Shown here piece after piece: positions 198 to 23,153 of a stretch of DNA of 33,436 nt. The DNA comes from a bacterium (GTDB taxonomy: Bacteria; UBA6262; WVXT01). The translations under genes were made by a program, and so were the position numbers. Positions within the stretch are counted from its first letter, which is position 1. Every line of letters begins with the position of its first letter. Under the pieces are notes generated by a model, which saw nothing but the letters and a program-made list of their open reading frames with translations, was not told where the DNA came from and made no database searches. The stretch is taken from assembly GCA_035530055.1 (NCBI GenBank), contig DATKVN010000052.1, positions 1 to 33,436 on the forward strand, given 5' to 3'.

Positions 198-599
198 ATG
201 GCCAGAGAAAAAATTCTAATTATCGATGATGAACAGGACTTGGTTAAGTTGGTGAAAGAGATTCTGGAAATCGAGGATTTCCAGGTGAGTTATGCTTATG
301 ATGGTGAGGAGGGATTGAGAAAAGCGACTAGTGAAATTCCGGATCTAATTCTTTTAGATATTAAAATGCCCGGCATCAATGGTTTCCAGGTATTAGAGAG
401 CTTGAAAATAGATAAGGCTACTTCACACATTCCAGTGGTAATGCTCACTACCAGCACCCTCAGGCGAGATCGCGATAAAGCGTTCGACCTGGGTGCAGTG
501 GACTACGTGATCAAGTCATTGGAGGGTTTTGAACTGGGGGAGCGAATCCATAAGATATTGAGTGATCGCTTTAAAGATAAGAATAACACGGGTAGATAA
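198..599 (+). CDS. Receiver-only response regulator (CheY-like), Lys-Ser variant
   Basis: This 133-residue protein is a single phosphoreceiver domain with no output domain, so it probably acts by protein-protein contact as CheY or Spo0F do. The acidic pair D10/D11, the phosphoacceptor D54 (in LLDIKMPG), the switch threonine T84 and the conserved lysine K106 are all visible. The residue after the lysine is Ser rather than the near-universal Pro, a change at the alpha5/beta5 contact surface. It is the first gene of a run of five response regulators and a kinase in 5 kb. AAGG lies about 8 bases before the ATG. The family assignment is secure; the partner kinase is unknown, with the kinase at 2092 the nearest candidate. 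Confidence 0.93.
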   Translation: MAREKILIIDDEQDLVKLVKEILEIEDFQVSYAYDGEEGLRKATSEIPDLILLDIKMPGINGFQVLESLKIDKATSHIPVVMLTTSTLRRDRDKAFDLGAVDYVIKSLEGFELGERIHKILSDRFKDKNNTGR

Positions 600-671
600 A
601 AGAAAGGTATTGGAAGTTAGCATTATACGGTTTTTGACCGGGGAAAGGAATATAAGAAAGATAAAAGACAT

Positions 672-1364
672 ATGAAAAAGAAAATCTTAGTCGTCGATGA
701 TGATGCGGTAGTAGTTGAACTCCTGAAAGAAATCTTGACCACACAGAATTTCAGAGTTATCTCCGCTAGAAATGGTGACGAAGCAATAAGGAAAGTGCGA
801 GAAGAAAAGCCAGACACCGTCGTTTTAGATGTGGTGCTTCCCGGCTTGAATGGTTTTGACGTGTGTCGGGTTTTGAAACAGGATAAGATGACCCATTCTA
901 TTCCTATCATAATGTTAAGTGGCAAGGCTATGGAAACCAGAGACAAAGTTACTGGATTTGAGGCAGGAGCTGATGATTATTTAACTAAACCCTTCGAGGC
1001 TAAAGAGCTGGTTGCCCGCATAAGAGCTTTATTAAGGCGCTATGAGCTTTCTGAGGACTTTGAGGAGGTCGTAGAAAAGGAGGGGATTTCTCTCGATGTT
1101 ACCAGAGCTACAGTGCGGGTGAAAGGAAAACTTGTGAACCTGAGACCAAAAGAATTCGATTTACTCTACCTGTTGATGAAGAAGGCAGGTCGTGTTTTGA
1201 ATCGCTCATATTTATTGGTAAGTATATGGGGCTATGAGTATTTTGGTGCTACCAGAACAGTGGATGTGCATATAAGGAGACTCAGGGAAAAATTGGGAGA
1301 AGGGGCTGCAAAAAAGATAAAAACTGTAGAAGGAAAAGGATATATGTTTGTGGAAGGGGAGTAA
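672..1364 (+). CDS. OmpR/PhoB-family response regulator
   Basis: A full-length 230-residue two-domain regulator. Residues 1-120 are the receiver (D9-D11 acidic cluster, phosphoacceptor D53, Lys-Pro in YLTKPFE). Residues 130-230 are the winged-helix DNA-binding domain, with the LRPKEFDLLYLL transactivation-loop region, a TRTVDVHIRRLREKL recognition helix and a C-terminal wing ending KTVEGKGYMF. The domain order and the VDVHI-RLREKL signature are typical of PhoB/PhoP/WalR-type regulators. The sequence alone does not decide among them. A PhoB role is suggested by the TTAACA array starting five bases after its stop and by the PiT/PhoU-like genes further along. Its ribosome binding site is weak. 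Confidence 0.93.
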   Translation: MKKKILVVDDDAVVVELLKEILTTQNFRVISARNGDEAIRKVREEKPDTVVLDVVLPGLNGFDVCRVLKQDKMTHSIPIIMLSGKAMETRDKVTGFEAGADDYLTKPFEAKELVARIRALLRRYELSEDFEEVVEKEGISLDVTRATVRVKGKLVNLRPKEFDLLYLLMKKAGRVLNRSYLLVSIWGYEYFGATRTVDVHIRRLREKLGEGAAKKIKTVEGKGYMFVEGE

Positions 1365-1368
1365 AAAG

Positions 1369-1407
1369 TTAACATAGATTTAACATTTTTGTAACACTGT
1401 TGTAATA
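1369..1407 (+). promoter_or_regulatory. Pho-box-like array: four TTAACA-type direct repeats, 11-bp period
   Basis: TTAACA at 1369, TTAACA at 1380, GTAACA at 1391 and GTAATA at 1402 start exactly 11 bp apart. This matches the architecture of PhoP (Bacillus) boxes, TT(A/T/C)ACA repeats bound by a tandem OmpR-family dimer. A plausible -10 (TAAGAT at 1417-1422 or TATATT at 1422-1427) follows at the spacing expected when such a box replaces the -35. The likely target is the receiver/kinase operon from 1636. The binding protein is inferred. Confidence 0.6.
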
Positions 1408-1445
1408 AGTCTATGGTAAGATATATTTTGGAGCATTGGAATTTT

Positions 1446-1616
1446 CCCGATTGAAAATCGGGATGCACCAATTGAATTTGTGCCTGTAATAGGAAAGGAG
1501 TAGCAGAGATTGCTCTGCGTTAACTAATCGCGAAACAAGTTTCGCTACTCCAGAAGACTCTGGAGTAGCAGCCTTCAGTCTGCGTTTAGAATTTGTGGGC
1601 ACGGTTTTAGCCGTGC
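1446..1616. repeat. Cluster of hairpin repeats in the leader of the 1636 gene
   Basis: The palindrome CCCGATTGAAAATCGGG is at 1446-1462. GGAGTA followed by hairpin GCAGAGATTGCTCTGC is at 1497-1518. Hairpin GCGAAACAAGTTTCGC plus TACTCC is at 1530-1551. GGAGTA plus a mismatched GCAGCCTTCAGTCTGC is at 1562-1583. GCACGG/CCGTGC pairs at 1599-1616. All lie between the pho-box-like array and the start codon at 1636, so they would be in the 5' leader of that transcript. Confidence 0.8.
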
Positions 1617-1635
1617 AAAATAGAAAGGTTCTATA

Positions 1636-2076
1636 ATGAAAGAGAAAATTCTTTTTGTTGATGATGATCCAGATATTGTTAGGCTGGTAAAGGAGACTCT
1701 CCTTGATGAAGGGTTCGAGTTTGTTTCTGCTGAGGACGGCGAAGGTGGCATAAAGGAGGCTCAAACGTCCCATCCTGACCTAATTATTCTGGACATGCAG
1801 CTTCCGGACATAGACGGGTTTGAGATTTGTCGGAGACTAAAAGCCGAGGAAGGGTGCAAACATATACCTATAATAATGTTAACAGGCAAGTTTAAAGAGA
1901 CTTCTGATAAAGTTGAGGGATTAGTGGATGGTGCGGATGACTATGTGCTAAAACCCTTTGAGACTCAGGAACTATTGGCACGAATACGAGCAGTGCTCCG
2001 GGAGTACAAACATTTTGGTCCAAAGCACCTGGTGAAAGACCATCTGGACGAGTTAAGACGGAAGAAAAAGGATTAA
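1636..2076 (+). CDS. Receiver-only response regulator with basic tail
   Basis: A 146-residue protein with an intact receiver domain in residues 1-120: acidic cluster D9-D11, phosphoacceptor D53, T83 and K106-P107. A roughly 20-residue charged tail ends in RRKKKD and resembles no known output domain. It is followed after 15 bp by the membrane histidine kinase at 2092, so the two are probably co-transcribed and this is the most likely phosphorylation partner. AAAGG lies 8 bases upstream of the ATG. The leader carries a hairpin cluster and a pho-box-like array. Confidence 0.93.
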   Translation: MKEKILFVDDDPDIVRLVKETLLDEGFEFVSAEDGEGGIKEAQTSHPDLIILDMQLPDIDGFEICRRLKAEEGCKHIPIIMLTGKFKETSDKVEGLVDGADDYVLKPFETQELLARIRAVLREYKHFGPKHLVKDHLDELRRKKKD

Positions 2077-2091
2077 TCCTCGGGAGGCAGA

Positions 2092-3513
2092 ATGCGTCTT
2101 AGAACAAAGTTCAGCTTCTTTGCTATTCTTATATTGGTGGTAGCTTTACTGGGAATGAGCGTGATTCTGTTCATTTTTGAGAAGAAACATCTTTTGCAGA
2201 CAATGAGAGAAAGCCAGGTAAATACCATAAAGGGTTTGACAGAGGTCTGCAAGGAGGCGATAATTAGCGAAGACGATCTGCTTCTTATGAATTACATCAA
2301 GGTGGTTAAGAGGACTACAGGGGTAATTTATGCCATGTTCGTAGACGATGAAGGAAAAGTGGTAGTGCATACCGATACTAATCTTCACGGTTATGTGTAT
2401 CGGGATTCTATAGGAATAAAAGCTCAGAACTCAGAGGACTTGTTGGTTCAATCTTATAAGGGAATAGAAGGTGGTGAGCTCATTGATGTCTCACTTCCTG
2501 TCTTATTGGGAGAGGATAGGTTGGGTACTGCCCGAGTTGGATTTTCTAAAGCAGTGTTGAATAGAGTTGTGGAAGATACATTATCCCTGACCCGTCGTCG
2601 TATCCTTGTGGTAACAGGTGTTGCCTTTTCTTTCGGGATTTTTGGTGCGTTTATTCTGGCTCAGCTAATGAGTCGTCCAATCAGGAAGCTTACTGAAGGT
2701 GCAAAGTCTATCGGACAGGGGAACCTGGAACAGAAGATTTTAGTCAAGAGTAGAGATGAACTTGGCGATTTAGCAGGTGAATTTAACAGGATGGCAAAAA
2801 AGCTTAAAGAGCTTGACCAGATGAAAGACGACTTCGTTTCCAGCGTCTCCCACGAGCTCCGCTCACCTCTAACCTCAATTAAAGGCTATGTCGATTTTAT
2901 CTTGAGGGGAAAAGCTGGGCCACTTAATAAGAAGCTCATAGAATATTTGACAATTGTCAAGAACAACACTTCTCGACTGGGGATGTTCATAAATGACATC
3001 CTCGATTTAGCAAAAATTGAAGCCAAGCGTTTTGAGCTGGGAAAAGAAGCTTTAGAGCTTTCACCGCTCATAGAGGAAATGGTTACATTTTTCCGGCCCC
3101 AAGCAGAAGAGGGCAAGATCCAATTGGAGGCAGTCGTTCCTACCAGTATCTCTTTGGTTTCCGCCGACCAGGATAAACTTAGACAGGTTTTCACAAACCT
3201 TCTCAGTAATGCTTTCAAATTTACTCCTGAGGGAGGAAAAGTAACTATAGAAGCGAAAAATTCAGGATCGGGAAACTTCGTAGAGATTGCTGTTAAAGAC
3301 ACAGGAGTGGGCATTGCCAAGGAGGACTTGCAAAAAGTTTTCGACAAATTCCAACAGGTTAAGTCATCTGGAGGTAAAGTGAAAATAGTGAAAGGCACAG
3401 GGCTGGGCTTGGCCATCATTAGGGGAATCGTCGAGGCACATGGTGGTCGGATTTGGGTAGAGAGTGAACTCAATAAGGGAAGCAATTTTATTTTTACTTT
3501 ACATAAGGCATAA
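2092..3513 (+). CDS. Membrane sensor histidine kinase (HAMP, HisKA, HATPase_c)
   Basis: A 473-residue class I sensor kinase. Hydrophobic segment 1 spans about residues 8-29, an extracytoplasmic sensing region about 30-169, and segment 2 about 170-192. A HAMP linker (SRPIRKLTEGAKSIGQGNLEQ) follows. The HisKA dimerisation helix carries phosphoacceptor H254 in SVSHELRSPL. The ATP-binding domain has an N box (N373, SNAFKF), G1 DTGVG at 403-407 and G2 GTGLGL at 435-440. The catalytic set is complete. The overall plan resembles PhoR/WalK kinases but has no PAS domain. The ribosome binding site is GGGAGG. It sits between two receiver proteins, which suggests a multi-component phosphorelay. Confidence 0.95.
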   Translation: MRLRTKFSFFAILILVVALLGMSVILFIFEKKHLLQTMRESQVNTIKGLTEVCKEAIISEDDLLLMNYIKVVKRTTGVIYAMFVDDEGKVVVHTDTNLHGYVYRDSIGIKAQNSEDLLVQSYKGIEGGELIDVSLPVLLGEDRLGTARVGFSKAVLNRVVEDTLSLTRRRILVVTGVAFSFGIFGAFILAQLMSRPIRKLTEGAKSIGQGNLEQKILVKSRDELGDLAGEFNRMAKKLKELDQMKDDFVSSVSHELRSPLTSIKGYVDFILRGKAGPLNKKLIEYLTIVKNNTSRLGMFINDILDLAKIEAKRFELGKEALELSPLIEEMVTFFRPQAEEGKIQLEAVVPTSISLVSADQDKLRQVFTNLLSNAFKFTPEGGKVTIEAKNSGSGNFVEIAVKDTGVGIAKEDLQKVFDKFQQVKSSGGKVKIVKGTGLGLAIIRGIVEAHGGRIWVESELNKGSNFIFTLHKA

Positions 3514-3538
3514 TATATAATATAATGCAGAGAGAAAT

Positions 3539-4471
3539 ATGAACAAGGAAAAGATTCTGGTAATAGAGGACGAAGAGGACATTGCTAATCTGGTCAAAAC
3601 TACCCTTGAGGGCGAAGGTTTCGAGGTCACAGTTGGTTACAGTGGGGAAGAGGGACTGGAAAAGATTCATCGGGTCCCGCCGGATCTCGTAGTTTTAGAT
3701 TTAGGGCTTCCTGGTATGAGTGGCTATCAGGTTTGCCAGAAGATTAGAGAAGATGTTTCTTTAGCTCATATACCTATAATCATGTTAACTGCCAAGGGCT
3801 CTACATCGGATAAAGTCATTGGATTGAGCTATGCTCCTGATGACTATATTACCAAGCCTTTCCAGGAAGAAGAACTTGTTGCCCGCGTGAAAACGCATTT
3901 GACTCGCACTGCCAGTGACCTCTCCGCTAATCCTTTAACCAAATTGCCTGGCAACATTTCCCTCGTCGAGGCGTTAAAGAAGTGTCTAAGCCGGGACCGT
4001 CTATTTGCTGTCTTGTATTTAGATTTGAGTAATTTTAAAGCTTTCAACGATAAATATAGTTATCTCAGGGGCGACAAAGTTCTTCGCGTTACAGCTCAAA
4101 TCATTCTCAAGGCAGTTAAACAGAAAGGCAATCCAGATGACTTTATTGGTCACATTGGAGGGGATGATTTCATCGTAGTTACTAGCCCGGATAAAGTTGA
4201 TGCCCTCTGTAGAGGTATCATTAAAGACTTTAACCAGGAGATTCCCAGTCTCTACGACGAAGAAGATAGAAAAAGAAAATATATTATAACCAAGGATCGG
4301 CTCAATAAAATTACGAAGTTTCCATTGATGATTATTGCTATCGGAGTAGTTACAAATAAATCGAGGAAATTCGCCAGTCCTGCTGAGATTAGCGACGTGG
4401 GTGCTGAACTGAAAAAATATGCTAAGCTCAAAAAAGGGAGCAGTTACGTTGTAGATAAAAGGGAAGATTAG
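3539..4471 (+). CDS. Response regulator with GGDEF-like (GGDDF) output
   Basis: A 310-residue protein. Residues 1-120 are a receiver (D54, K106-P107). Residues 131-305 resemble a diguanylate cyclase domain: NPLTKLPGN corresponds to the usual LTGLPNR, YLDLSNFKAFND to the substrate and metal loop, and HIGGDDF (207-211) to the GG(D/E)EF signature. The fourth signature residue is Asp instead of Glu, and a roughly 25-residue charged insertion lies near 230-255. It may make cyclic di-GMP weakly, bind GTP, or act as an inactive sensor domain. It starts 25 bp after the kinase and is probably in the same operon. GAGAGA precedes the ATG. Confidence 0.88.
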   Translation: MNKEKILVIEDEEDIANLVKTTLEGEGFEVTVGYSGEEGLEKIHRVPPDLVVLDLGLPGMSGYQVCQKIREDVSLAHIPIIMLTAKGSTSDKVIGLSYAPDDYITKPFQEEELVARVKTHLTRTASDLSANPLTKLPGNISLVEALKKCLSRDRLFAVLYLDLSNFKAFNDKYSYLRGDKVLRVTAQIILKAVKQKGNPDDFIGHIGGDDFIVVTSPDKVDALCRGIIKDFNQEIPSLYDEEDRKRKYIITKDRLNKITKFPLMIIAIGVVTNKSRKFASPAEISDVGAELKKYAKLKKGSSYVVDKRED

Positions 4472-4503
4472 AAAGGCAAATTTTTATATAAAAGAAGGCG
4501 GCG

Positions 4504-5199
4504 ATGTTAAAGAAAACAATTTTGGTGATAGACGATGATGCGTCGATTTTGAAACTGGTCAGCAACGTCTTGATAGAAGAGGGGTTTAGTGTAATTACTG
4601 CCAATTGTGGAGAAGAAGGGATTAAGAAAGTTCATCGTTCAAAGCCAAATTTAGTTATTTTGGATTTGAGGCTGCCCGATATGGATGGTTTTCAAATTTG
4701 TCAAACTTTGAAGAAGGATAAGATTGTAAGTAATATCCCAATTATAATGCTCACCGTTAAATCTACAAAGTCCTCAACTGTTGCCGGATTGGAGATGGGC
4801 GCTGATGACTATATTGTTAAACCTTTTAATCAAGAAGAATTAGTTGCTCGAGTGAAGACAGTGCTGCGTCGAGCTGGTGGAGAAGAAGAAGTAGAAGAAA
4901 TTTTAAAGTATGGAGATATGCGCTTAAATTTGGATAAACATGCTGTATCCATAAAAAATAAGCAGATTGATTTAACACCTATGGAATTTAATTTACTTCA
5001 CATTTTGGTAAAAAAGAAGGGGCATGTGCTTAACAGAAATTTCTTGTTGGAGACAGTATGGGGCTACGAATACTTTGGCACTACTCGTACTGTTGATGTT
5101 CATATCGGACGACTGCGAGAGAAGTTGGCCTCCCTGGGTGAAAAGATTGAAACTGTAGAAGGGGTAGGCTACAGGTTAATCGATGAGGGGAAAGACTGA
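4504..5199 (+). CDS. OmpR/PhoB-family response regulator
   Basis: A full-length 231-residue regulator of the same architecture as the protein at 672: receiver with acidic D10-D12, phosphoacceptor D54 and the Lys-Pro of YIVKPFN, then a winged helix with LTPMEFNLLHILV, WGYEYFGTTRTVDVHI, RLREKL and a final VEGVGYRL. The last 100 residues are so close to those of the 672 protein that the two look like paralogues that arose within this cluster. It begins 32 bp after the GGDDF protein and ends the signalling run. Its target promoters cannot be read from the window. Confidence 0.93.
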   Translation: MLKKTILVIDDDASILKLVSNVLIEEGFSVITANCGEEGIKKVHRSKPNLVILDLRLPDMDGFQICQTLKKDKIVSNIPIIMLTVKSTKSSTVAGLEMGADDYIVKPFNQEELVARVKTVLRRAGGEEEVEEILKYGDMRLNLDKHAVSIKNKQIDLTPMEFNLLHILVKKKGHVLNRNFLLETVWGYEYFGTTRTVDVHIGRLREKLASLGEKIETVEGVGYRLIDEGKD

Positions 5200-8121: not shown

Positions 8122-8472
8122 ATGGGAGAAAAGGTAGCAAGGGTCGGTGTAAAGAGACAGGAAGGTTATCTCTATTTCATCGACAAGCAAGGAGATGTTT
8201 CTCGGGCGAAGATGGCCCGCGGTGGCAAGAAAGGCGGGGGTCCTGTAAAGGTTACTAGAGTTGGTGTTAAAAAGGCCCGTGGTTATCTCTATTACCTTGA
8301 TAAGCAAGGAGATGTTTCTCGGGCGACGATGGCCCGCGGCGGTAAGAAGAAGAAAAAGAAGAAAAAAGCCGCCAAAAAGAAAACTACCAGAAAAAAAAGG
8401 AGGAAAACAATGGTAAAGAAAAAGAAAGCAAAAAAGAAGAAGAAAGCAACAAAAAAGAAGAAAAAGGGATAA
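8122..8472 (+). CDS. Histone-like lysine-rich protein with duplicated 33-residue module
   Basis: A 116-residue, extremely basic protein. Residues 5-37 and 44-76 are two copies of a module reading roughly V-x-RVGVK-x4-GYLYF-DKQGDVSRA-MARGGKK. The copies are also nearly identical as DNA (8134-8232 and 8251-8349), implying a recent duplication. Residues 75-116 are an almost pure Lys/Arg/Ala/Thr tail like those of histone H1-type bacterial proteins. It is likely to bind nucleic acid non-specifically. The function of the module is unknown to me. The ribosome binding site GAGGAGGTG (8104-8112) is strong, suggesting high expression. A second strong Shine-Dalgarno lies inside the gene ahead of Met97. 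Confidence 0.85.
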   Translation: MGEKVARVGVKRQEGYLYFIDKQGDVSRAKMARGGKKGGGPVKVTRVGVKKARGYLYYLDKQGDVSRATMARGGKKKKKKKKAAKKKTTRKKRRKTMVKKKKAKKKKKATKKKKKG

Positions 8473-8913: not shown

Positions 8914-9663
8914 TTGAGGAAACCGATTATCGCTGGTAACTGGAAAATGAATAAGTTGACCTCAGAAGCAGTGGAGTTAGCCCGTGAAGTAAAAAACAAA
9001 ACAGGGACTATTGCAGATAGGGAAATAGTTCTCTGTCCCCCTTTCACTGTTCTTTCCTCAGTAAAGGAAGTAATTAAAGGTTCCTCGATAAAATTGGGTG
9101 CCCAGAATATGTACTGGGAAGTTCGCGGAGCATATACTGGAGAAGTATCGCCAACGATGCTCAAAGATATTGGCTGTAATTATGTAATTTTAGGTCACTC
9201 AGAGCGACGCCAATATTTTGGCGAAACAAATGAGACAGTAAATAAGAAAGCGAAGATAGCTTTTTCTATCGGTCTTATTCCTATTGTTTGTGTAGGGGAA
9301 ACGCTCCGACAGAGAGAAAAAGGAGAAACTTTAACAGTAATAGAAGAACAGGTTAAAACAGGACTATCTGGGTTGACAAAAGAAGAAAGTAAAGGATTGG
9401 TAGTGGCTTATGAACCTGTCTGGGCTATCGGTACGGGAAAGACAGCTACGCCTGAGGAGGCTGAAGAGGTGCAGCGATTTATTCGGAAATTGTTAGGGCA
9501 AATGTTTGGAAAGGAGAATGCTCAGGCAATCAGAATTTTATACGGAGGAAGTATTAATCCTGATAATATTTCGGTTCTAATGTCTTGTGAAGATATAGAC
9601 GGAGGGTTAATAGGCGGAGCAAGTCTAAATGTAGAATCTTTTTTGAAGGTTGTGCGCTATTAG
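8914..9663 (+). CDS. tpiA: Triosephosphate isomerase
   Basis: A 249-residue TIM-barrel enzyme of normal length that interconverts dihydroxyacetone phosphate and glyceraldehyde 3-phosphate in the cytosol. N9 and K11 (AGNWKMN), the electrophile H95 (LGHSERR), the catalytic base E167 (AYEPVWAIGTG), the flexible loop 6 and the phosphate-binding YGGSINPDN are all present. The start is TTG with AAGGAG seven bases upstream. It has its own consensus promoter and heads a carbon-metabolism stretch with rpiB and transketolase. Confidence 0.97.
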   Translation: MRKPIIAGNWKMNKLTSEAVELAREVKNKTGTIADREIVLCPPFTVLSSVKEVIKGSSIKLGAQNMYWEVRGAYTGEVSPTMLKDIGCNYVILGHSERRQYFGETNETVNKKAKIAFSIGLIPIVCVGETLRQREKGETLTVIEEQVKTGLSGLTKEESKGLVVAYEPVWAIGTGKTATPEEAEEVQRFIRKLLGQMFGKENAQAIRILYGGSINPDNISVLMSCEDIDGGLIGGASLNVESFLKVVRY

Positions 9664-9695
9664 TGTGCCTTTTGGTATTCCTCCAATTCCAAATA

Positions 9696-9720
9696 GGAGT
9701 AGCAGACTTCAGTCTGCGTT
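9696..9720. repeat. Hairpin repeat unit (GGAGTA + GCAGACTTCAGTCTGC)
   Basis: GGAGTA (9696-9701) is followed by the 16-base hairpin core GCAGACTTCAGTCTGC (9702-9717) and GTT. It lies ten bases before the rpiB start codon, so it may take the place of a conventional ribosome binding site, which is not visible. Confidence 0.8.
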
Positions 9721-9729
9721 TGAAAAAAG

Positions 9730-10182
9730 ATGAAAATTGCTATTGGCTCTGACCATCAAGGATTCAAGTTAAAAGTGGAGTTGAAAGAGAAACTTCAAAA
9801 ATTAAATCATGAAGTGGGCGATTTTGGCTGTTTCTCAGAAGAAGCCTGTGATTACCCGGATTATGCAGTGCAGGTTGCTGAAGCTGTTGCTCGTGGAGAG
9901 TATAACAAGGGGATTCTTATATGTAAGAGCGGGATAGGAATGAGCATTACCGCTAACAAAGTTCCTGGAATTTTAGCAGCTTTAGTTCGTGATGAAGAAA
10001 TGGCAAAGTTGGCATCTGAACATAACAATGCCAACATTATCTGCCTGAGCTCTAATCTTGATCAAAAGAGAATGATGAATATAGTTGCTAGTTGGCTTAA
10101 CACTCCTTTTGGGTGGGAGAGGCATCTCCGCAGGATAAATAAGATTAAGGAGATCGAAAATAAGTATTTAAAGCAGAAATGA
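9730..10182 (+). CDS. rpiB: Ribose-5-phosphate isomerase B
   Basis: A 150-residue RpiB/LacAB-family isomerase that interconverts ribose 5-phosphate and ribulose 5-phosphate. It shows GSDHQGF (D8, H9), DYPDYA, the catalytic C65 within ILICKSGIGMS, the EHNNANI segment (H98, N99) and a basic RHLRRI near 131-136 for phosphate binding. The usual Gly-Thr after the catalytic cysteine is Lys-Ser, a mild deviation. It fits functionally with the split transketolase downstream in the non-oxidative pentose phosphate pathway. Confidence 0.94.
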   Translation: MKIAIGSDHQGFKLKVELKEKLQKLNHEVGDFGCFSEEACDYPDYAVQVAEAVARGEYNKGILICKSGIGMSITANKVPGILAALVRDEEMAKLASEHNNANIICLSSNLDQKRMMNIVASWLNTPFGWERHLRRINKIKEIENKYLKQK

Positions 10183-10282: not shown

Positions 10283-10300
10283 ATTGTTTAGGTGGTTAAC

Positions 10301-12154
10301 ATGATTGAACGTTGGAGCATGAGTTTTTCTCCGACTCAAAGGGGAGAAAAGAGATACAAGATAAGAGTCTATGGAGAACAGAGGGATCTTAGGGACTTAA
10401 TAGACAAGATTGGAAATATCTGCAGTCGCCCTTTTGTTCCTCGGGATAAAGAATACAACTGGGCCTTTTATGTTTATAATGTTGACTCCCAGGTAAAAGA
10501 AAAAATTATCAAAATACTGGATGAATCTATGAAAGCCCCCAAACCCTCTGTTTCCAAGGTAAAAGATTCAGGAGAAATTCAGAAGAAAGAGGTGAGCGTA
10601 GAGCCGAAAAAGGCAAAGGCTGAAAAACCCGTTAAACCCATCGGGGAGCTCAAGTTGAATCCAGCATATACTTTTGAGAATTTCGTCGTTGGTCCCTCTA
10701 ACAGATTCACCCACGCAGCTACTCAGGCTGTGGCAAAAAGTCCAGGAGAAATATATAATCCTTTATTTATCTACGGTGGGGTGGGATTGGGGAAAACTCA
10801 TTTACTTCATGCGATTGGACATTATGTCAAAAGTAAAAAATCAGACGCAAAGATACTCTATGTTACTACTGAAACGTTCATGAATGAAGTTATCGAAGCC
10901 ATTGGCAAAGGAACGATAGAAGAGTTTAGAGAACGTTATCGGCAAGTAGACCTCTTGTTAATTGATGACATTCAATTTTTGGTTGAGGCAGAGTCAACCC
11001 AGGAAGAATTCTTCCATACCTTCAATGTGCTTCACGATGCCCACAAACAGATTGTAATTAGTTCAGATAAGCCTCCCAAACAGCTGACCACTTTAGAGGA
11101 GAGATTGAAGTCGAGATTCGAATGGGGTTTGATTGCTGATATCAAGTCCCCCAATTTAGAAACAAGAGTTGCTATTCTTAAGAAGAAAGAAGAGCTTGAA
11201 CAATTAGACCTTAGTGATAACATACTTGTATATGTTGCCGGCAAATTGAAATCTAACGTTCGCGAACTCGAAGGTTTCCTGAAGCGAATTAATGCCTATG
11301 GTCAATTAACCAAACAGGAGATAACCATAGATTTAGTTCGGGAATTGATGAATGATCTTCTGCCTGAAAAAGAAAGAGAAGAGTTCTTAGAGGTAAAGCC
11401 ACCAGAGACAAAAGAGCCTAAATTAGAAGAAGAAAAGAAAGTGGCTCCCCCTCCGTTAGAAGTCGAGGAGGAGAGAAAGTGCTTGACTTGTGGGCAGAAT
11501 CTTGCCTATGTTGAACAATACGATCGCTGGTATTGCCATAATTGCAAAAAATATGCTCCTAAAGAAATTCCTGAAATGGCAACACCTGAAGTTCCTCCAC
11601 CAGAGGAAAAGGTGATTGAAGAGGAAGTCGAGGAAATTAAGAGGGAAAGAGTTCCACCACCGACTGAGGAAAAAGAAGTGAAAGCGGCAAAGGAGCCAGA
11701 ACCTGCTCCGGAAGTCTCACCTCCACCTGTGGAGCGAGCGCCAGTTGATAAATCATTACGGAAAGTAGAAGTAGGCTACTTTTATCCACAAGACCGCAAT
11801 AAAGAGATTGAAGAACTTAAAACACAATTTGATGAAGTATTAAAAAAACATAAGTTGAAATTCCGGTTGGAGGCAGTTTTTGAGAAAGATTATAAAGCGG
11901 AAAAGAAAATAAATTATGGAATGTTTGCTGAACTTTGTAAAACAGGTAATGTGAGAATTGCTGTAGTCTTAGGACCTCCGCCGGGCAGTAGTTTATCAGC
12001 AACTGAGTTTTCCAGAATGCTGGGAGCAATTTTGGATGACGCAAATATTTCTCTTCATTTTGTTCCTTATAGTGATGTTAAAAAAAGGTATAAATATCTC
12101 AATATGCTTCTCGATATTGCCGTGATAGGGCACAAGGAACTTTTCCCAAAATAG
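10301..12154 (+). CDS. DnaA-type AAA+ ATPase with zinc ribbon, lacking the origin-binding domain
   Basis: A 617-residue protein. Residues 1-78 form an unknown N-terminal domain unlike DnaA domain I. Residues 117-350 are a complete DnaA ATPase core: [13 protein letters not shown], Walker A GGVGLGKT (159-166), Walker [10 protein letters not shown] (218-226), sensor I SSD near 255, arginine-finger box LKSRFEWGL (R272) and sensor II NVRELEG (R321). Where DnaA has its helix-turn-helix domain IV there is instead a Pro/Glu-rich linker, a four-cysteine zinc ribbon (C394, C397, C412, C415), a second acidic linker and a C-terminal alpha/beta domain (485-617) I do not recognise. It is unlikely to be the replication initiator. 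The ATG at 10301 has AGGTGG five bases upstream. Two receiver proteins follow. Confidence 0.88.
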
Positions 12155-12158
12155 TATT

Positions 12159-12200
12159 AAAAGATAGTTTGTTTATCGCACTTTCCAGAAACTATCTTTT
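12159..12200. terminator. 12-bp inverted repeat after the DnaA-like gene
   Basis: AAAAGATAGTTT (12159-12170) and AAACTATCTTTT (12189-12200) are perfect inverted copies with an 18-base loop, starting four bases after the stop. The AT-rich stem and lack of a clean T-run make it a weak terminator candidate. A diverged copy of 12189-12215 recurs at about 12957-12982. Confidence 0.4.
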
Positions 12201-12233
12201 GGATGTCATGAGTGGCCCTGATGAAACAGGAAT

Positions 12234-12296
12234 GTTAACGCAGAGCAAGCTCTGCTACTCCAAAGTCTTTTGGAGTAGCGAAACTTGTTTCGCGAT
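12234..12296. repeat. Two-unit hairpin repeat before the 12316 gene
   Basis: GTTAAC is followed by hairpin GCAGAGCAAGCTCTGC (12240-12255) and TACTCC, then GGAGTA (12272-12277) with hairpin GCGAAACTTGTTTCGC (12278-12293). The two units face away from each other, and the element ends about 20 bases before the start codon. Confidence 0.8.
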
Positions 12297-12315
12297 AATA
12301 GAGAGGAAGAAGAAA

Positions 12316-12684
12316 ATGGCCAAGATATTAATAGTAGAGGATGACCCTACTACTGTGCAATTGATTGAGTTTCTTTTAAAGAAGAATAATTTCGAAGTTC
12401 TTATTGCTTATAATGGAGTAGAAGCTTTGCAGATAGCCAAAAAAGAGAAATCGGATTTGATATTGATGGATGTTATGATGCCTAAGATGGACGGAATCGA
12501 AGCTATTGAGAAATTGAAAAAAGATGAAAATACTCGGGATATCCCAATTATAATCCTTTCAGCTTTAGGACAAGAGATGGATGTAATGAGGGGGCTACAA
12601 GCGGGAGCTTCAAGCTACATCGTTAAACCTTTTAGCCCTCAGGAGTTACTTACCGAAATAAATACAAAATTGACAAAAAAGTAG
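12316..12684 (+). CDS. Receiver-only response regulator
   Basis: A 122-residue CheY-type receiver with acidic D9/D10, phosphoacceptor D52 in LMDVMMPKMDG, switch S82 and K104-P105. The common GADDY loop is GASSY. A longer open frame reaches back to 12169 but runs through the hairpin repeat, and GAGAGGAAG sits a few bases before the ATG at 12316, so the short start is chosen. It follows the DnaA-like protein by 161 bases. A functional link is possible but not shown. Confidence 0.9.
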   Translation: MAKILIVEDDPTTVQLIEFLLKKNNFEVLIAYNGVEALQIAKKEKSDLILMDVMMPKMDGIEAIEKLKKDENTRDIPIIILSALGQEMDVMRGLQAGASSYIVKPFSPQELLTEINTKLTKK

Positions 12685-13076: not shown

Positions 13077-13469
13077 ATGTCGAAATTAAACATTTTAATT
13101 GTAGAAGATGATCCTCAGACGGTAAAACTAATTAAGTTTATTTTAGAGAAAGAAGACTATTCGACAATTTCAGCAAAAGATGGGGAAGAGGGATTACAAA
13201 TGGCGAGAGAGAAGAAGCCTGATCTGATTGTTCTAGATTTGATGCTTCCGGGAATGGATGGATATCGGGTGTGTGAAATTTTAAAAGCTAATCCAGTTAC
13301 TAAAGAGATACCGGTTATAGTGCTTACCGCTCTTGATACTGGTGTGGACTTTGAAAAAGCCTTAGAGAAGAAAGCTGACTGGTACATAACTAAGCCCTTC
13401 GAACCCCAACACCTACTAAAGCGAGTTAATTATTTAATCGAAAAAAGAAAAAAAGATGAAAATAAATGA
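13077..13469 (+). CDS. Receiver-only response regulator overlapping transketolase
   Basis: A 130-residue receiver domain with acidic E10/D11/D12, phosphoacceptor D54, T84 and K106-P107. The usual GADDY loop reads KADWY. A strong AGGAGG lies six bases before the ATG. The last 14 bases overlap the start of the transketolase N-terminal gene, so the two are translated from one message and probably coupled. Such an arrangement of a stand-alone receiver with transketolase suggests co-regulation but does not show a direct role. Confidence 0.92.
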   Translation: MSKLNILIVEDDPQTVKLIKFILEKEDYSTISAKDGEEGLQMAREKKPDLIVLDLMLPGMDGYRVCEILKANPVTKEIPVIVLTALDTGVDFEKALEKKADWYITKPFEPQHLLKRVNYLIEKRKKDENK

Positions 13470-14286
13470 ACAGACCAAGAAACTGGATAAGATAGCCAGA
13501 CAGGTAAGAAAAAATATCATTGAAATGCTTGTCCAGGCGGGGTCGGGCCATCCCGGTGGGGCTCTTTCAGCGTGTGACATTATGGTAGCTCTCTATTTTT
13601 CTGTGATGAGGCATAACCCTCAAAATCCTCAATGGAGAGAGAGGGACAGGTTCATTCTTTCTAAGGGACATAGCTGTCCTGCGATGTACGCTTGTTTAGC
13701 GCGAGCTGGATACTTTCCTTTGCAAGAGCTTAGTACCCTGAGAAAACTTGGTAGCCGGCTCCAGGGTCACCCTTCTAAGACCGACGGTTTACCCGGAATA
13801 GAAGTTTCCACTGGTTCACTTGGACAGGGTCTCTCTATCGCCAATGGTATTGCCCTGGGGCTCAGGCTGGATAAAATAGATGCTCGCGTCTACTGCTTGA
13901 TGGGCGACGGCGAGATAGAAGAAGGACAAATCTGGGAAGCAGCAATGACGACTTCCCATTACCACATAGACAATCTTTGTGGAATTGTCGATAATAATGG
14001 ATTGCAGATAGATGGAACAATTGATGAGATAATGAGTCCAAATCCCATCTCTGAAAAATGGAAGGCTTTTGGTTGGAATACTATCGAAATTGATGGGAAC
14101 AAAATGGAAGAGATCCTGGAGGCATTTGCTGAAGCGAAAACAATTAAAAGGAAACCAACAGTTATTATAGCAAAGACCATAAAAGGGAAGGGTGTCTCCT
14201 TTATGGAGAATGCTGTTGAATGGCATGGGAAAGCGCCTTCGAAGGAACAGGCGAAAGTTGCCTTGAAGGATTTAGAAGGTTCCTGA
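13456..14286 (+). CDS. Transketolase, N-terminal subunit
   Basis: A 276-residue thiamine-diphosphate-binding half of a split transketolase, as found in many archaea and bacteria. Visible are GSGHPGG (29-35), SKGHSCPAMYA, GHPSKTDGLPG and STGSLGQGLS. The diphosphate and metal motif starts GDGEIEEGQIWEA and continues to VDNNGLQIDG. A WHGKAP near the end matches the substrate-binding end of the domain. It transfers two-carbon ketol units in the non-oxidative pentose phosphate pathway together with the C-terminal subunit 73 bases downstream. Its start codon overlaps the preceding receiver gene. Confidence 0.95.
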   Translation: MKINEQTKKLDKIARQVRKNIIEMLVQAGSGHPGGALSACDIMVALYFSVMRHNPQNPQWRERDRFILSKGHSCPAMYACLARAGYFPLQELSTLRKLGSRLQGHPSKTDGLPGIEVSTGSLGQGLSIANGIALGLRLDKIDARVYCLMGDGEIEEGQIWEAAMTTSHYHIDNLCGIVDNNGLQIDGTIDEIMSPNPISEKWKAFGWNTIEIDGNKMEEILEAFAEAKTIKRKPTVIIAKTIKGKGVSFMENAVEWHGKAPSKEQAKVALKDLEGS

Positions 14287-14316
14287 CCCCATTTTCTACC
14301 GATTGAAAAATCGGGG
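14282..14316. repeat. Repeat fragments between transketolase halves
   Basis: CCTGACCCCATTTTCT (14282-14297) is a single arm end of the MITE-like repeat at 8666. It overlaps the stop codon of the upstream gene. It is followed by CCGATTGAAAAATCGGGG (14299-14316), a copy of the CCCGATT hairpin family. Confidence 0.7.
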
Positions 14317-14359
14317 TTTCAGTGTTTATCAATGAGATTAGAAAGAGAGAATACAATCA

Positions 14360-15301
14360 ATGGTTGAGATGAAAGCAACGAGAGATGGATATGGGGAAGG
14401 ATTGGTAGCTCTGGGAGAGAAGAATCCTCAGGTGGTGGTCTTGTCAGCCGACCTCACCGATTCCACGAGAGCTTCAATGTTCAAGAAGAGATTTCCAGAA
14501 AGGTTCTTTACAATGGGAGTTGCTGAAGCTGATATGATTGGTACTGCGGGCGGATTATCCTTAGTGGATAAAATTCCCTTCTGCTGCACTCTGGGAGTTT
14601 TTGCCTCTGGTCGCGTCTGGGATCAAGTGAGAGTCACAATCTGTTACAGTAATCTAAATGTAAAGATAGGCGGAAGTCACGGAGGAATTTCGGTTGGCCC
14701 TGATGGTGCTACCCATCAGTCTATTGAGGAGATTACTCTTATGCGAGTTTTGCCTAATATGAAGGTCGTTGTTCCCTGCGATGCTATTGAGACAAGAAAG
14801 GCTACCATTCAGGCGGGAGAAGTATCGGGACCGGTGTATATAAGATTTGGTAGACCACCCATCCCCATAATTACAACAGAAGATACTCCATTTCTTCTTG
14901 GTAAGGCAATAACAATGCGTAAGGGTAAGGATGTAGCAATCTTTGCCTGTGGAATTATGGTGTATGAGGCCTTGGAAGCAGCAAGGGAGCTGGATAAAAA
15001 GGGAATTTCGGCAGGGATAATTAATTTACATACAGTGAAGCCTATTGATGAGGAGATAATATTTAAGGCAGCAAAAGAGACAGGAGCTATTGTTACTGCC
15101 GAAGAACATCAACTTTCCGGAGGGTTTGGCAGTGCAGTGACTGAGGTGGCGGTGAAGCAGTATCCCGTGCCAGTGGAAATGGTAGGAATTAAAGATCACT
15201 TCGGTAAGTCAGGAAGTCCTCAGGAGTTAATGCAAGATTTTGGGTTGACACGATTTGATATTATAAAAGCAGTAGAAAAGGTATTGAAAAGAAAAGGGTA
15301 G
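14360..15301 (+). CDS. Transketolase, C-terminal subunit
   Basis: A 313-residue partner of the gene at 13456, carrying the pyrimidine-binding domain and the C-terminal domain. The catalytic glutamate that activates the thiazolium is E56 in MGVAEADMIG. SHGGISVGPDGATHQSIEE and YIRFGRPP are typical of this half. Residues 190-313 form the transketolase C domain (IINLHTVKPID, EEHQLSGGFGSAV). Both halves are full length for the split form, so the pair should be active. An ATG at 14369 is an alternative start. Confidence 0.95.
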   Translation: MVEMKATRDGYGEGLVALGEKNPQVVVLSADLTDSTRASMFKKRFPERFFTMGVAEADMIGTAGGLSLVDKIPFCCTLGVFASGRVWDQVRVTICYSNLNVKIGGSHGGISVGPDGATHQSIEEITLMRVLPNMKVVVPCDAIETRKATIQAGEVSGPVYIRFGRPPIPIITTEDTPFLLGKAITMRKGKDVAIFACGIMVYEALEAARELDKKGISAGIINLHTVKPIDEEIIFKAAKETGAIVTAEEHQLSGGFGSAVTEVAVKQYPVPVEMVGIKDHFGKSGSPQELMQDFGLTRFDIIKAVEKVLKRKG

Positions 15302-21920: not shown

Positions 21921-23153
21921 ATGAAAATATTAAAGGGTTTCAAATATAAACTTTGCCCGACGGAAGAACAAAAGCAATTACTGTTACAACACGGTGGGAA
22001 TGCTCGCTTCCTATGGAATTATCTTTTAGCGGATAATATTAAACATCATAAACAAACTGGGAAATTCAAGTTTGCTCACGAAATGACTGTGAATGTCCCA
22101 AAAATTAAAAAAGAATATGATTTCTTAAAATTGTCTTTTTCTCAATCTTTACAGATGGTTGCAAGGCAGTTGGACAAAGCCTTAGAAGATTGTTTTAAAA
22201 ATGGAAAAGGTTTCCCCCAATTTAAAAAGAAACAGAAAGAAAATGACAGTTTTACAGTGCCACAAAAATGGAGATTAGGGAAGGGTTTTGTTTTTATACC
22301 GAAAACAGGAGAAGTTAAATGGATAAAACATAGGGCACTTCAAGGAAAACCTAAATCGATTACGATTTCTCAAGATGGAGATCAATGGTATTGTTCTGTT
22401 CTTTGTGAAATTGAAATTCCAGATATAGAAAAAAGTACTGATAATATTGTTGGGGTTGATGTTGGTTTAAAGAATTTTGCTACTCTTTCTGATGGCACTA
22501 TTATTGAAAATCCAAGAAATTTAATGAAATTGGAAGAAAAATTAAAGAAAGAACAAAGGGAATTGAGTAAAAAACAAAAAGATAGCAAAAACAGATATAA
22601 GCAACGTAAAAAAGTTCAGAAAATACATCGTAAGATTAGAAATGCAAGATTAGTTTTTCTTCATAAGACAACCTCGAATATGATAGCCAAGTATTCTGGG
22701 TTTGTTTCGGAAGACTTAAATATAAAGGGAACGATGAAAAATCATCATCTTGCTAAATCTATTGCGGATGTATCGTGGTATAAGTTCAAACGACAACTTG
22801 AATACAAGTCATTGTGGAATGGGGAATACTTCCTTCAAATAGGAAGGTTCGAGCCTACAAGTAAAACTTGTAGTAATTGCGGATATGTTCAAGAAATGCC
22901 TTTGAGCAAAAGAAATTTTAATTGCCCAAGTTGTGGTCTTTCAACCCACAGAGATTTAAATGCTTCCATAAATATTTTAAATATAGGATTAGCTACCCTT
23001 GGACGGAGGGAAAGTAACGCCTGTGGAGTTGGGACGATAGTTCCGACAACGAAGCAGGAAAAAGAATGTCCCGATATGACATCGGGACAGAAGCCCCGAT
23101 GCTTGCGTCGGGGAGCGTCACCCTCTCGTGACCCCGTGATTCATAAAATCTAA
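21921..23153 (+). CDS. tnpB: TnpB RNA-guided nuclease (IS605/IS1341 type, no TnpA)
   Basis: A 410-residue TnpB. The N-terminal HTH_OrfB_IS605 region (residues 1-40) is followed by the wedge-like beta domain. The RuvC-like nuclease has D180 (VGVDVGLKNFATL), E264 (SEDLNIKG) and D345 (THRDLNAS), with a zinc finger CSNC (317-320)/CPSC (335-338). All three catalytic acids and four cysteines are present, so it should be active. No tnpA transposase accompanies it. The last 60 residues overlap the presumptive guide-RNA region, and about ten codons after 23121 appear to be host sequence beyond the element end. Confidence 0.93.
   Translation: MKILKGFKYKLCPTEEQKQLLLQHGGNARFLWNYLLADNIKHHKQTGKFKFAHEMTVNVPKIKKEYDFLKLSFSQSLQMVARQLDKALEDCFKNGKGFPQFKKKQKENDSFTVPQKWRLGKGFVFIPKTGEVKWIKHRALQGKPKSITISQDGDQWYCSVLCEIEIPDIEKSTDNIVGVDVGLKNFATLSDGTIIENPRNLMKLEEKLKKEQRELSKKQKDSKNRYKQRKKVQKIHRKIRNARLVFLHKTTSNMIAKYSGFVSEDLNIKGTMKNHHLAKSIADVSWYKFKRQLEYKSLWNGEYFLQIGRFEPTSKTCSNCGYVQEMPLSKRNFNCPSCGLSTHRDLNASINILNIGLATLGRRESNACGVGTIVPTTKQEKECPDMTSGQKPRCLRRGASPSRDPVIHKI
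23000..23137 (+). ncRNA. Presumptive omega-RNA (right end) of the tnpB element
   Basis: It is defined by homology to the relic at 7950-8089 and by analogy with known TnpB guide RNAs that overlap the 3' end of tnpB. Hairpin 1 GTCCCGAT/ATCGGGAC is at 23068-23088, and hairpin 2 CCCCGATG-CTTG-CGTCGGGG at 23094-23113. The conserved terminal AGCGTCAC ends at 23121. The roughly 16 bases from 23122 would be the guide. The 5' end is a guess. Confidence 0.6.

Follow-up and report, generated by a model that had tools for sequence, protein, structure and literature searches.

DnaA, one of the most conserved bacterial proteins, is equated with replication initiation. In the E. coli protein, Lys243 is needed for the interactions of domain III and contributes to oligomerisation at oriC and to unwinding, and Val211 and Arg245 bind single-stranded DNA (review PMC5742627); the residues of Thermotoga DnaA that correspond to those motifs are Val176 and Lys209 (PMC10316083). 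Hda and DnaC/DnaI/IstB are DnaA-like ATPases without a domain that binds DnaA boxes, and the NtrC-type bEBPs are AAA+ switches linked to a receiver.

Another described system becomes relevant because of the genes that surround the locus in related bacteria. The enzymes DeoC and RpiB, together with shell proteins, are the signature of the SPU microcompartments, which have been proposed to use the products of DNA degradation (PMC4207490, PMC8217296), and the two enzymes are common to all SPU subtypes (PMC8217296). DnaA is not mentioned in the main text of either article.

The window, i.e. the whole stretch of 33,436 nucleotides that was analysed, encodes a paralog of DnaA. The family to which it belongs appears to go back to an early duplication of the DnaA ATPase core, which lost its DNA-reading part, acquired two unrecognised domains and has been maintained beside two-component genes in at least three phyla. 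We found no earlier description of this family in the open-access literature that was searched, most subscription journals being outside the scope of the search.

Architecture and motifs of the DnaA paralog

The gene (10301–12154, on the forward strand like its domains, the two receivers and the isomerase and transketolase genes located below) encodes 617 amino acids from the ATG at 10301. A GTG at 10292 is also in frame; the ATG start is backed by orthologues that have the same N-terminus (MIERW...). Orthologues of the same length are found in three other genomes of the window's genus, which excludes that the gene is a misassembled fusion.

The DnaA-type AAA+ core and its lid lie at 10658–11377, as supported by profile matches, the motif table and the tree. 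The protein matches Bac_DnaA of Pfam (E=1.5e-73) up to and including the lid region, where the profile match ends. Its score with the NCBIfam DnaA equivalog model is 382.9 bits, above the cut-off of 343.9, and automated pipelines would therefore label it "chromosomal replication initiator", which can misdirect the prediction of origins and the use of marker genes in these phyla. It scores below the cut-off of the Hda model (124 bits, cut-off 194.8) and below those of all the NCBIfam models of DnaC, DnaI and IstB; a match to the Pfam IstB family is above its cut-off, and is explained by the shared AAA+ core. The sigma-54 activation AAA+ domain and the DNA-binding domain of the NtrC-type bEBPs are absent from the Pfam and NCBIfam results for this protein.

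The initial annotation credited the core with every DnaA motif. The Walker A and B motifs (11 and 10 residues, respectively), sensor I (SSD), box VII with the arginine finger (RLKSRF) and sensor II (NVRELEG) are indeed present, but the position of E. coli K243, which we take to be aligned with Lys209 of the Thermotoga protein, is occupied by an alanine. This position is a lysine or an arginine in 30 of 30 DnaAs, versus none of 67 paralogs. In the subfamily of the window protein, D269, R281, R285 and R334, that is, the sensor I aspartate, the box VII arginine, the arginine finger and the sensor II arginine, are retained in 45–48 of the 48 sequences. A divergent Elusimicrobiota subfamily, examined in 20 members, retains Walker A and B and has lost nearly all of sensor I, the arginine finger and sensor II; this decay is also visible by eye.

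ATP-dependent oligomerisation, which had been expected from the motifs, is plausible for the window protein, but ATP-driven assembly cannot be the mechanism of the whole family, since the arginine finger and sensor II are missing from this large Elusimicrobiota subfamily, and since there are stand-alone proteins that consist of the N- and C-terminal domains without any AAA+ module. In many Elusimicrobiota, the outer domains persist despite the decay of the arginine finger and sensor II. It may be that, in the lineages whose paralogs have no arginine finger, the protein is a static, nucleotide-bound scaffold.

The N-terminal domain (10301–10531, approximately 77 residues) was delimited from an alignment of 47 members; it has conserved W, P, R and RP residues, of which P44, W5, P11 and R18 are invariant or nearly so. 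A single-sequence model predicts a beta-beta-alpha-beta-alpha fold, with pLDDT values mostly between 60 and 84 in this domain; the full-length AlphaFold model, made without an alignment, is poor outside the N-terminal domain and was left out of the fold search. The C-terminal domain (11753–12151, 133 residues, delimited from a model and alignments) is modelled from eight sequences as four beta-alpha units (pLDDT 82, pTM 0.77). Its top structural matches are the MID domain of Argonaute (E=6e-5, TM 0.57–0.60) and lumazine synthase, with TM values of about 0.5–0.6, and we treat this modest resemblance as a generic likeness between alpha/beta folds. The nucleotide-binding function of Argonaute MID gives a weak lead, according to which the C-terminal domain may bind nucleotides.

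No family was found for either domain in Pfam, against which all members were scanned, or in PDB profile searches, the matches being at chance level in both cases. The N-terminal domain is not a divergent DnaA domain I (profile–profile probability 1.2% and no Pfam match, with positive controls at 99%). Domain IV of DnaA has no Pfam match in the window protein, and the C-terminal domain (residues 485–617) is not a divergent form of it: the profile–profile probability is 0.1%, in a comparison in which two subfamilies of the C-terminal domain find each other at 99.2%. A degenerate receiver was likewise excluded by profile comparison. The initial annotation was therefore right to describe a DnaA-derived protein which has lost the helix-turn-helix of domain IV, in which domain I is replaced, and which ends with about 130 residues of unrecognised alpha/beta sequence. 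The two domain families, which are outside Pfam, are supplied here for curation.

The four-cysteine zinc ribbon noticed from the sequence (approximately 11474–11545, a stretch of 22 residues) is present between two acidic, proline-rich linkers, and gives weak ribbon-type matches. It does not belong to the core design of the family. A pattern count finds it in only 13 of 68 paralogs, from the window's genus and the second phylum described below, and in none from the window's sister family or from the sampled Elusimicrobiota. The ribbon is a lineage-specific accessory of the family, whose most constant components are the N- and C-terminal domains.

The stand-alone N–C proteins devoid of AAA+ sit directly upstream in several loci, which implies that the outer domains can be found together in a protein that has no ATPase. 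In loci L074, L087, L088, L154, L172 and L174, the main gene is preceded by one such protein or by two in tandem. Other variants of the architecture were also observed. A protein of 922 residues in L085 contains two N-terminal domains. In L090, L093, L096 and L099, the paralogs are longer (869–1034 residues), and a long unrecognised N-terminal region replaces the detectable N-terminal domain; triosephosphate isomerase and DeoC are present in these four loci, with no pilT or kinase nearby.

Distribution of the family and its relation to DnaA

Each of the six genomes of the window's phylum has a second Bac_DnaA gene, of DnaA length. The C-terminal domain is detected in five of the six; the sixth copy, which is cut by a contig end, has the N-terminal domain and the AAA+ core. 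Outside this phylum, the C-terminal domain was found in one of 92 genomes drawn, and that genome led to a second phylum. A 56-member profile detects it in 16 of 16 genomes of that phylum and in 244 of 341 Elusimicrobiota genomes. The second phylum is presumably distinct from the Elusimicrobiota, considering that the two genome lists (16 and 341) share no place. A scan of named genomes returned three Elusimicrobia as well as four metagenome-assembled genomes, whose titles are "Clostridia bacterium" or "bacterium", and a scan of viral contigs for the C-terminal domain gave no match. The AAA+ core and the C-terminal domain occur in one protein in 51 loci over three phyla, most of which also have the N-terminal domain; in some, the latter is undetectable, cut off, or encoded by a separate upstream ORF.

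The genome of the window contains a separate, complete dnaA, with domains I and IV (G000:C21), so that the paralog is neither the only nor the canonical initiator gene of this genome. In a tree of 65 ATPase cores, from which the very long-branched rows and the divergent Elusimicrobiota subfamily were left out, 37 paralogs and 28 DnaAs are on opposite sides of one branch, with a support of 100/100; this tree is unrooted, holds only a small number of DnaAs from outside, and samples none of the DnaAs of the second phylum. A larger, quick tree agrees with the split, apart from long branches whose position is unsure. Since the paralogs of three phyla lie on one side, the simplest reading is that a single old duplication likely occurred before the Elusimicrobiota and the two smaller phyla split.

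Taken together, the absence of domain IV, the presence of a separate dnaA and the change at the K243 position suggest that the paralog is probably not a replication initiator. The proposal that it represents a new class of DnaA-derived machine is retained insofar as it is probably a non-initiator with new domains, but it is not a local novelty: the family is old and extends over at least three phyla.

Signalling, pilus and catabolic genes around the paralog

In the window, the paralog is preceded by genes for triosephosphate isomerase and an RpiB-type isomerase (8914–10182) and followed by two stand-alone receivers, a split transketolase (N and C halves, 13456–15301), a phosphate transporter and nucleoside phosphorylases; the isomerase and transketolase genes are conserved neighbours. 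Receiver 1 (12316–12684, PF00072, E=2.5e-32) is in an ORF that spans 12169–12684, the conserved protein starting at MAKILIVEDD, and receiver 2 is at 13077–13469 (PF00072, E=1e-30).

The tie between the paralog and the two receivers, which had been noted in the window, is conserved. The receivers that accompany the paralog in the two other phyla share 48–63% identity with receiver 1, and those of the sister family and of the second phylum share 50–59% identity with receiver 2. Receivers 1 and 2 are less similar to the other receivers of the window (35–46%). The higher identity across lineages shows that each of them is the same positional partner of the paralog from one lineage to the next. In the second phylum, receivers follow the paralog in the seven loci examined, three of which have a kinase in between. 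In Elusimicrobiota, a histidine kinase is directly downstream of the paralog in 29 of 40 loci, and a stand-alone receiver is found just beyond in only seven. In the window's phylum, neither a kinase nor pilT is adjacent to the paralog. The conserved neighbourhood and the orthology of the receivers suggest that the paralog may be controlled by phosphorylation, although the receivers could have another target within the locus.

Four loci of the second phylum have a further receiver-like protein beside the paralog (L154:10369-10845, L172:10118-10588, L174:7549-8025 and L169:6846-7349), in which the usual phospho-acceptor aspartate looks replaced by a glutamate (..DLIITEL..); these are probably pseudo-receivers. 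The window itself has another two-component cluster (198–5199), with a histidine kinase and five receiver-containing proteins, including two OmpR-like regulators and a receiver–GGDEF-like protein. It adjoins nusG-L11-L1, and its receivers differ from the pair that accompanies the DnaA paralog.

The survey of neighbours confirms that receivers and kinases recur, and adds a pilT and deoxyribose/nucleoside-catabolism context, present mainly in relatives, which the initial annotation had missed. Over the 51 loci, which are from related genomes so that the counts are not independent, and with genes named by similarity to reference proteins identified by reading rather than by curated models, the neighbours are DeoC (30 loci), RpiB (27), BMC-H and triosephosphate isomerase (19 each), the N half of transketolase (16), EutN/CcmL and DeoB (13 each), PNP (10) and PduL (5). 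The pilT gene is upstream of the paralog in 24 of 40 Elusimicrobiota loci. All 244 Elusimicrobiota genomes that have the C-terminal domain have a PilT-like protein (E<=1e-60); 43 genomes have PilT without the C-terminal domain, and the 54 without PilT, 34 of which were assigned by elimination, all lack it. The losses cluster in related genomes, and are not independent events. In the window genome, PilT-like genes are on other contigs, one of them in a pilB-pilT-pilC-pilin group.

Two further genes of the window were noted. The first (8122–8472) encodes a small protein with two near-identical repeats (RVGVK..GYLY..DKQGDVSRA.MARGGKK) and a very lysine-rich, histone-H1-like tail; it is conserved in the sister genomes L009 and L010, where it likewise follows the L11-L1 ribosomal genes. 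The second (21921–23153) encodes a TnpB-like protein of the IS200/IS605 type, with a zinc-finger motif near its end, amid metabolic and envelope genes.

Proposed function, alternatives and known systems

We give about an even chance to the following hypothesis: the DnaA paralog family, which probably has one origin, is a non-initiator AAA+ scaffold that is controlled by a two-component system and acts on a cytoplasmic client. Domain IV, which reads DnaA boxes, and domain I have given way to two unrelated domains. A sensor kinase would phosphorylate its cognate receivers, which would then bind the N- or the C-terminal domain in trans, and this binding would switch the assembly of the ATP-bound scaffold, at least in proteins whose arginine finger survives. 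The assembled scaffold would act on its client, which is the weakest step of the proposal; the best candidates, according to the neighbourhood, are PilT, the ATPase of type IV pilus retraction, and the programme of deoxyribose/nucleoside catabolism. This hypothesis connects signalling with pilus retraction and the use of nucleosides, in a way that can be tested, in bacteria that have been little studied. A more specific version, a DNA-scavenging control machine in which the phosphorelay-gated, DnaA-derived scaffold couples type IV pilus retraction, for DNA capture and uptake, to deoxyribonucleoside catabolism, is quite improbable in our opinion.

Other functions must be considered. The proximity of the core to DnaA, which the equivalog score illustrates, and the intact arginine finger and sensor II, which make mixed assembly with DnaA conceivable, would fit a replication regulator similar to Hda or DnaC, whose core would bind DnaA or the replicative helicase and thereby control initiation. 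We regard this as unlikely, however: the scores with the Hda and DnaC/DnaI models are far below the cut-offs, the first 30 residues show no clamp-binding sequence of the Hda type, the AAA+ interface is decayed in a large subfamily, and synteny is with catabolic, pilT and two-component genes rather than with replication genes. The adjacency of two-component and catabolic genes could instead point to an AAA+ activator of transcription that receives its signal from receivers in trans and targets the surrounding catabolic genes. DnaA is also a transcription factor, which we count in favour of this possibility. We hold it for equally unlikely, since Pfam and profile searches found no helix-turn-helix or other DNA-binding domain and the core no longer has one of the basic residues of DnaA; nucleic acid binding by the ribbon is conceivable, yet the ribbon is not conserved.

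The paralog could also be an accessory factor of SPU microcompartments, involved for example in their assembly, positioning or cargo control, as might be expected from the shell genes that accompany it, with DeoC and RpiB, in 19 of the 51 loci. On the contrary, the shell domain is found in none of six genomes (that of the window and five relatives): the window locus has RpiB but lacks DeoC and shell genes in its vicinity, and PF00936 finds no match in the genome. Among the sampled Elusimicrobiota, shell genes are present in 17 of 35 genomes that have the C-terminal domain, but also in 8 of 20 that have pilT without it, and in 1 of 15 that are pilT-negative. With shell genes absent from the six genomes and present in only part of the Elusimicrobiota, the shell is optional, and it is the catabolic and signalling neighbours that are more widespread. 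A role restricted to microcompartments is excluded as a general explanation, since the protein persists without any shell gene; an accessory role, to which we give a low probability overall, could still hold within the lineages that bear microcompartments.

Regarding known systems, the paralog is close to the SPU loci by its gene context in many Elusimicrobiota, where it is surrounded by DeoC, RpiB and often shell genes, whereas the window's phylum has the paralog and no shell genes. The NtrC-type bEBPs are a mechanistic analogy only, and we claim no membership: the receivers of the paralog are separate proteins, its AAA+ module is of the DnaA family, and no DNA-binding domain was found. It has in common with Hda and DnaC/DnaI/IstB a DnaA-like ATPase devoid of the DnaA-box-binding domain, but it is larger, as had been noted, with new N- and C-terminal domains and another gene context. 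With DnaA itself (TIGR00362, PF00308) it shares the AAA+ core, with Walker A and B, sensor I, box VII, the arginine finger and sensor II; it differs by the absence of domain IV, of a detectable domain I and of the lysine at the K243 position, by its two new domains, and by being encoded in addition to the dnaA of its genome. As far as can be judged from these comparisons, the DnaA-clade AAA+ module is of a known kind, and what appears to be new is its combination with two domains that are outside Pfam.
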